Below are positions 9,466 through 51,985 of a stretch of DNA of 64,000 bases, piece by piece. This DNA comes from Thermoproteota archaeon (GTDB lineage Archaea > Thermoproteota > Methanomethylicia > Methanomethylicales > Methanomethylicaceae). Position numbers and translations under genes: made by a program. Position 1 is the first letter of the stretch. Each line of letters opens with the position of its first letter. The stretch is from positions 190,809-254,808 of the forward strand of contig JAJHRG010000001.1 of assembly GCA_020832905.1 (NCBI GenBank). Direction: 5' to 3'. The notes under the pieces were generated by a model. The model saw only the letters and a list, made by a program, of their open reading frames with translations. It did not search any database and was not told where the DNA came from.

Positions 9466-9666
9466 TTTACAACTGAAAGTCTTGCCATTTATGACGAGAT
9501 GAAGAAAAACTTACAGACTTTCCTTTTTTAATTATCATAAGTTTAGATATGTAGTTACTCTTAAGTATTTGGATGTAGGATTACAATTACTTAAACAAAA
9601 TAGATGTGAAGGGTTCTGATCTCCTGAATATCTCTCAAATGATAGATGTAAATCCAAATGGGAGAT
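9466..9666 (+). ncRNA. Unidentified structured RNA element, copy A (before uL22)
   Basis: This is a diverged partner of the element at 44476-44667. Shared blocks in the same order are TTTACAACTGAAAGT (9466-9480), TGGATGTAGGATT (9570-9582), ACAAAATAGATGTG (9595-9608), CTGAAT (9624-9629) and ATGATAGATGTAAAT (9639-9653). Helices are GAAAGTC/GACTTTC (9475/9516), GTAGTT/AATTAC (9551/9585) and ATCTCTCA/TGGGAGAT (9630/9659). The last two pair in both copies despite base changes. No ORF is conserved between the copies. I do not recognise the family. It is less GC-rich than copy B. Confidence 0.6.
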
Positions 9667-9684
9667 TCAGAAATCTAATAATAT

Positions 9685-9750
9685 TAAAAAACTTTTTATA
9701 TTTCTTATATTTCTTACAATTCTTTGCTTAATAGTATTGGAAGTGATATA
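9685..9750 (+). promoter_or_regulatory. Candidate promoter for the uL22-onward genes
   Basis: An AT-rich stretch, AAAAAACTTTTTATATTTC (9687-9705), gives a TATA-like CTTTTTATAT about 50 bp before the uL22 ATG at 9751. The following 40 bp hold no gene. A weak GGAAGTGAT SD precedes the ATG. Since the operon is interrupted here by element A, a fresh promoter is plausible but not proven. Confidence 0.35.
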
Positions 9751-44475: not shown

Positions 44476-44667
44476 TTTACAACTGAAAGTTTTGTCTTTC
44501 AAGACGGGAGTAAGTAGAAAAGCTTATAAACTCTTTTGTATTGGTGTTTTCGTGGTTGCCCCAAGCCCATGGATGCAGGATTGGCAACCACATGAACAAA
44601 ATAGATGTGGGGACTCGATCCCTGAATGCCTCTCAGATGATAGATGTAAATTCGAATAGATGAGAGG
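44476..44667 (+). ncRNA. Unidentified structured RNA element, copy B (before uS15)
   Basis: Homologous to 9466-9666. Helices: AGTTT/AAACT (44488/44528), GTCTT/AAGAC (44494/44501), GTGGTTGCC/GGCAACCAC (44552/44583), GGGA/TCCC (44610/44619) and CCTCTCA/TGAGAGG (44629/44661). A further hairpin ATCTTC/GAAGAT (44669-44696) follows. Conserved loops are TGGATGCAGGATT and ATGATAGATGTAAATTC. GAAAAGCTTATAAAC (44517-44531) is a good BRE/TATA box, which would start a transcript near the 9-bp hairpin. The 44552-44667 part is clearly GC-richer than its surroundings, as expected of a thermophile ncRNA. Confidence 0.65.
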
Positions 44668-44715
44668 AATCTTCGTCCTTTAGGGCAAAAGAAGATCAGA
44701 TGTGGGTGAGAATAT

Positions 44716-45162
44716 TTGAAGAAAAGTAAGAGAAAGGGAAAGTCACATTCTACTAGACCAATAACAAGTGTTTGTAAGTGGGTTAAGTATACACCAGAAG
44801 AAGTAGAATCACTAGTAGTAGAACTTGCAAAAAAAGGAATTCCTCCTTCTCAAATTGGTATTATCCTTAGAGATCAATATGGTATTCCTTTAGTTAAGCA
44901 AATAACAGGTAAAAAAATATGTGAGATTTTAGAAGAAAGAAAGTTATTACCTGCAATACCAGAAGACTTACAAAATTTAATAAAACGTGCTAGTAGAGTT
45001 AGAAGACATTTAGAAGAACATCCAAAAGATATGAGTTCAAAAAGAGGTTTACAGCTTATAGAATCTAAGATAAATAGACTTGCCAAATATTACATATCTA
45101 TCGGTAGACTGCCTCCTGACTGGAAATATGTACCAGAAAAAGTCTCTATACTATCAAAATAA
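44716..45162 (+). CDS. rps15: Ribosomal protein uS15
   Basis: A 148-aa archaeal uS15. The N-terminal extension has [20 protein letters not shown] and [20 protein letters not shown]; the core has [20 protein letters not shown] and the closing [18 protein letters not shown]. It starts with TTG 44716 after GGGTGAG. The structured element lies directly upstream and might be part of its leader. Confidence 0.96.
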
Positions 45163-51686: not shown

Positions 51687-51985
51687 TAATATCAAAAGAA
51701 GAATTTAAGAAATTATTTCCTAATCTTGCAAGAGAATTAGAAGAAAATACTGGTATTACTTTAAAGATTGATAAAAGTAGAGGCTATAATCCAACAGTCA
51801 TAGATTTTATAAAAAGATGTGAAAAAGATGAAGAAGCAATTGAAATTATAGATTTTCTTGAAAAACGTGGAGAGATAAGTAAGGAGTATGCTGAAAGTTT
51901 AAGAAAAAGAATAAAAGAAAAAGGAGTAAGATCCTTTGGTAAGAAAAGAAAACCAGGATATTACTTTAGAGCTTTTAAAATTTAA
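51683..51985 (+). CDS. Small conserved archaeal protein (DUF2095-like)
   Basis: A 100-aa protein beginning ISKEEFKKLFPNLARELEEN, with RGYNPTVIDFIKRCEKDEEA, EIIDFLEKRGEISKEYAESL and a basic end VRSFGKKRKPGYYFRAFKI. It fits my recollection of the archaeal DUF2095 family; the name should be taken as tentative. It is predicted helical and soluble. It is coupled to the radical SAM gene through a 4-nt overlap, suggesting a shared role. Confidence 0.7.
   Translation: MIISKEEFKKLFPNLARELEENTGITLKIDKSRGYNPTVIDFIKRCEKDEEAIEIIDFLEKRGEISKEYAESLRKRIKEKGVRSFGKKRKPGYYFRAFKI

Follow-up and report, generated by a model that had tools for sequence, protein, structure and literature searches.

Two similar stretches in the window (the 64,000 nucleotides analysed here, from the genome termed G000) stand before ribosomal protein genes, copy A before uL22 and copy B before uS15, and the question is whether they are regulatory RNAs of the host or something else. 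The original prediction had seen in copy B either an RNA gene with a promoter of its own or an r-protein autoregulatory leader common to uL22 and uS15. The sequence features behind it are correct. TTTACAACTGAAAG is found at both 9466 and 44476, GAAAAGCTTATAAAC forms a TATA-like box at 44517, and the 9-bp hairpin is present at 44552, with GTGGTTGCC at 44552 and GGCAACCAC at 44583. The GC content of 44552-44697 is 46% compared to 30% for the window, and equally GC-rich 146-nt stretches amount to 0.13%. RNA from 44552-44699 is predicted to fold into four hairpins in a row (-44 kcal/mol, z = -2.1), and copy A indeed has a degenerate sequence, CTTACAGAC, where copy B has its TATA box. The likeness of the two copies is not due to chance, since copy B as a query finds further copies on other contigs of its own genome (E 1.5e-23 to 1e-9). 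We show here that, as judged from their sequence, copies A and B are almost certainly tnpB-less, non-autonomous elements of the IS200/IS605 superfamily (Table 1).

Table 1. Coordinates of copies A and B, their parts and the neighbouring promoters within the window.
Feature	Position	Strand	Remark
TTTAC beside copy A	9466-9470
Copy A, decayed, between uS19 and uL22	9471..9673	+	both TATA and right-end hairpin have degenerated; right boundary uncertain
uL22 own TATA-like promoter AAAAAACTTTTTATA, downstream of copy A	9686..9700	+	block conserved before uL22 in G001 and further relatives
Ancestral uS15 TATA-like box CTTAAATAA	44464..44472	+	box conserved before uS15 among relatives
TTTAC at the left edge of copy B, target motif and predicted TAM	44476..44480	+
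Copy B, complete tnpB-less IS200/IS605-type element	44481..44699	+	219 nt; boundaries by alignment of copies
Left end of copy B: AAAG foot, imperfect subterminal hairpin GTTTTGTC TTTC AAGACGGGA	44481..44510	+
BRE/TATA-like promoter GAAAAGCTTATAAAC, inherited from tnpB	44517..44531	+	predicted start about 44550
5' hairpin, exclusive to tnpB-less copies	44552..44591	+	alignment of 14 copies
Omega/reRNA core, made of what was the tnpB 3' end and of the right end	44603..44699	+	ends: right-end hairpin, GATCAG
Predicted guide of 16-20 nt at the start of the right flank	44700..44719	+	inference from ISDra2 reRNA architecture (PMC8612924)

Copies without tnpB number about five in G000 and about eight in G001, a genome of the same genus (Ca. 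Methanomethylicota archaeon WYZ-LMO11) in which copy B finds matches down to E 7.7e-43. With a covariance model for the 3' part, 12 matches are found in G000, 28 in G001 and 6 in G034, counts that include fragments and end-only remnants; many of the G001 copies lie at contig ends, as is typical of repeats in assemblies. The aligned copies begin at AACTGAAAG, and intact right ends mostly finish in G(A/G)TCAG. Terminal inverted repeats are absent, and imperfect hairpins are found in subterminal position at the left and right ends; the left end of copy B is common to other copies and to tnpB elements. Every copy with a readable left flank is located directly 3' of TTAC, mostly TTTAC. The extent first given to copy B, 44476-44697, needs shifting: 44476-44480 is the TTTAC target and the element proper spans 44481-44699. 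Empty sites were sought with concatenated flanks and were exact for two copies and partial for others. One exact empty site, in G001 C16, corresponds to the G000 copy at C6:309.5k upstream of a homoserine-dehydrogenase-like gene; the other lies in the window itself (51900-51985) and corresponds to a G001 copy that is split over two contigs (C34/C21). Target duplication is absent at both. Other copies lie beside tRNA genes and at further unrelated sites, and one insertion is common to both species (G000 C16:87.9k and G001 C22:2.6k). For this shared insertion (L028, G000 C16:87882; L035, G001 C22:2609) the flanks are nearly identical and the element interiors are more divergent, possibly as a result of conversion between copies.

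The derivation of these elements becomes apparent from comparison with loci of tnpB, which encodes an RNA-guided nuclease. At several loci the TnpB C-terminus is continuous with the 3' sequence of the element, and in Desulfurococcaceae RSNS19 the core region is translated as the TnpB C-terminus (...TAPQMTDVNPNR...). Left and right ends matching those of the element flank tnpB in G000 C15 and RSNS19, while a single matching end is located beside tnpB in G001 C18, C51 and C60 and in G034 C139. The promoter block of the element precedes tnpB at the equivalent place in G000 C15, G001 C18 and RSNS19. In the full element of G000 C15 the left end is followed by a TATA-like box, a zinc-ribbon-like ORF of 40 aa, a tnpB with a frameshift and the right end, and RSNS19 has the same layout with an open TnpB of 423 aa. 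The TnpB family is recognized by PF07282 (1.3e-17 and 5.3e-15) and by NCBIfam guided_TnpB (104 and 103 bits, with a cut-off of 100 bits). The tnpB of the copy-B family carries a frameshift both in G000 and in G001 C51; the sole long open frame in the genus is that of G001 C18, with 358 aa and truncated by the contig end. G000 C15 also encodes one intact-looking Y1 TnpA without a stop; it belongs to another element, and the left end of that element is of comparable GAAAGCC-hairpin-GGGATGAA arrangement. Because ends and promoter are of the tnpB type and the core is made of the tnpB 3' end and the right end, copies A and B are best read as non-autonomous derivatives of IS200/IS605 (IS1341-type) elements. 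As an overall explanation, a tnpB-derived element that keeps ends, promoter and omega core is highly probable.

Several further observations concern the wider family. The small zinc-ribbon-like ORF (MVKLKCxxCGYIW...) is located before tnpB at L203 (1738-1860), L029 (1484-1606) and L190. TnpB of the copy-B family is 61-69% identical in Desulfurococcaceae (L190, L192, L193), which suggests horizontal transfer across archaeal classes. The omega core contains an invariant ATGTAAATCC, which reads GGATTTAC on the opposite strand, the element's own target, and a nested insertion and end-only remnants lie exactly at GGATTTAC (L037 in G001 C11, ~1350-1410; L200, ~657; L201, ~636). Hence, the element seems to insert into relatives of itself. 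Fusions of left and right end of ~40 nt, AACTGAAAGCCTTGCCCTTTAGGGCGGGGAGGAGGTCAG, are found at L033 (G000 C8, ~6780), L198, L200, L201 and L142, the latter between uS19 and uL22 in G001.

The conserved 3' part of the element occupies, by homology, the place of the omega/reRNA in tnpB relatives, and two features of such RNAs were found in it, homology to the tnpB 3' end plus right end and a conserved secondary structure. In the core stem 94.7% of cells are paired and five of seven pairs show compensatory changes; in the 5' hairpin, aligned for 14 copies, the figures are 92.1% and four of nine. Compensatory cells exceed those in shuffles in both stems (14 compared to 5.8 in the core stem, 5 compared to 1.7 in the 5' hairpin), a control that is weakened by the kinship of the copies, since related copies may beat shuffles without any structure. 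Slid structures, used as a control for both stems, score far below the actual stems. The 5' hairpin appears to stand where tnpB was. It is absent from all tnpB loci examined, and folds upstream of the tnpB copies contained no strong hairpin matching it. As part of a mobile element, the proposed RNA gene with its own promoter gains support from the BRE/TATA-like block before tnpB in relatives and from two stems with compensatory changes.

How is the position in front of two ribosomal protein genes to be understood? The fact that copies A and B both precede such genes had suggested a common autoregulatory leader for uL22 and uS15. However, the element is found at many unrelated sites, including those before the homoserine-dehydrogenase-like gene and beside tRNA genes, and the part common to both copies is the tnpB 3' end with the right end. 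It is not conserved with the gene either, as the uS15 upstream region of G001 contains no element, and the TATA-like box of uL22 (9686) lies downstream of copy A, which places copy A outside the uL22 leader. We therefore consider the common leader refuted, with very little probability left to it. Even less probable is a host RNA of a known class, such as RNase P, SRP, an H/ACA or C/D guide or a tRNA-like RNA. Copy B is structured and GC-rich and has a promoter of its own, as would be expected of such an RNA, but it has no Rfam match at gathering threshold (one chance match at a relaxed threshold), a tRNA scan returned none, and transposon ends are present on both sides. In relatives CTTAAATAA is located ~50 nt ahead of the uS15 start, and in G000 the element intervenes between this ancestral box and the start codon, so that the uS15 mRNA probably starts within the element. 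The TATA box of the element (44517) is directed at uS15; transcription from either TATA box would run through the element, and transcripts reaching uS15 would thus traverse the RNA. The element takes the place of the original 5' region of uS15, and the mRNA would carry it as leader. The Shine-Dalgarno-like GGGTGAG of uS15 and its start lie inside the predicted guide (44700..44719). A further role for the host would be co-option, with the element supplying a promoter and a structured leader to uS15 and thereby affecting its expression. The place of the insertion and the direction of its TATA box speak for co-option. Against it stands that just one of the two same-genus genomes carries the element at uS15, and we regard co-option as unlikely, albeit with a real share of the probability. 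The left flank of copy B differs from G001 by ~15 nt, hence the empty site at G001 uS15 is not exact.

A weightier alternative is that the miniature element is dead or lives purely as a parasite. Promoter and omega core would then be left over from the deletion of tnpB, and the hairpins would persist solely as DNA structures for single-strand transposition. The decay of tnpB in both G000 and G001 and the loss of the promoter from some copies are in line with this reading, and so are the existence of ends-only PATEs in archaea (PMC3119063) and the ~40-nt end-fusion remnants described above. However, compensatory changes occur in a stem outside the ends and in the extra 5' hairpin, and the TATA-like box and the omega core are retained in most tnpB-less copies. 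We give this explanation a substantial chance, somewhat short of even.

For the tnpB-derived element that keeps ends, promoter and omega core, a mechanism can be proposed. A Y1 TnpA acting in trans would have moved the element as a single strand of DNA. From the TATA box at 44517, transcription would begin near 44550 and continue past the omega-RNA into the flank; a related TnpB in trans may use the resulting RNA, in which some 16-20 nt of flank, beginning at 44700, would serve as guide. TnpB would then cut the donor joint TTTAC/ATGTGGGTGAG that remains after excision, and it is proposed that the element is restored by this cut. By analogy with known systems, such a guide role of the copy-B RNA is plausible, and we see the chances for and against it as balanced. 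Taken one step further, the element might be a guide-RNA-only mobile element, consisting of ends, promoter and an omega-RNA that has a scaffold hairpin of its own at the 5' side. It would be maintained by TnpB in trans, and every copy would direct the nuclease to the empty site of that copy; this idea is put forward tentatively, as one that may well prove wrong. TAM and guide of copy B were found at no other place in the available sequence, and the plasmid collection searched contained no match. In viral contigs a 16-nt core motif had 11 exact matches, which were judged to be chance.

In ISDra2 the reRNA is formed by the tnpB 3' end and the right end together with some 16 nt of flanking sequence, and the target motif doubles as TAM (PMC8612924). 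The elements described here share with ISDra2-type IS200/IS605 (IS1341-type) elements the subterminal hairpin ends and the insertion 3' of a short motif, which is TTAC/TTTAC here and TTGAT in ISDra2 (PMC8612924). Their core likewise corresponds to an omega/reRNA from the tnpB 3' end plus right end, for which a flank guide is predicted here. In contrast to ISDra2, copy B lacks tnpB and has an extra 5' hairpin after the promoter. With the PATEs of Haloquadratum and Halanaerobium (PMC3119063, PMC7290912) the copies have in common the absence of a transposase, hairpin ends, no target duplication, IS605-type kinship and end fusions of the ~40-nt type, the Haloquadratum case being a 52-bp core-deleted PATE. 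Compared to described PATEs it is unusual, however, that the copies have kept a promoter, an omega-RNA core and a 5' hairpin with covariation, and with these parts between the ends the copies fall outside the narrow ends-only definition of a PATE (PMC7290912). Sense-overlapping transcripts/omega-RNAs of Halobacterium are also archaeal ncRNAs tied to IS200/IS605 tnpB, but there the RNA overlaps the tnpB gene (PMC12558985), while the RNA locus described here stands without tnpB. A literature search that covered few subscription journals found no report of tnpB-less elements retaining an omega-RNA.

Thus, an apparent ribosomal regulator is reassigned to a mobile element. Miniature IS605-type elements have spread with a promoter and an omega-RNA core and without tnpB, which makes a possible trans action of omega-RNAs for non-autonomous elements directly testable. 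Copy B at uS15 further adds a case in which the promoter region in front of an essential gene has apparently been captured by a transposon.
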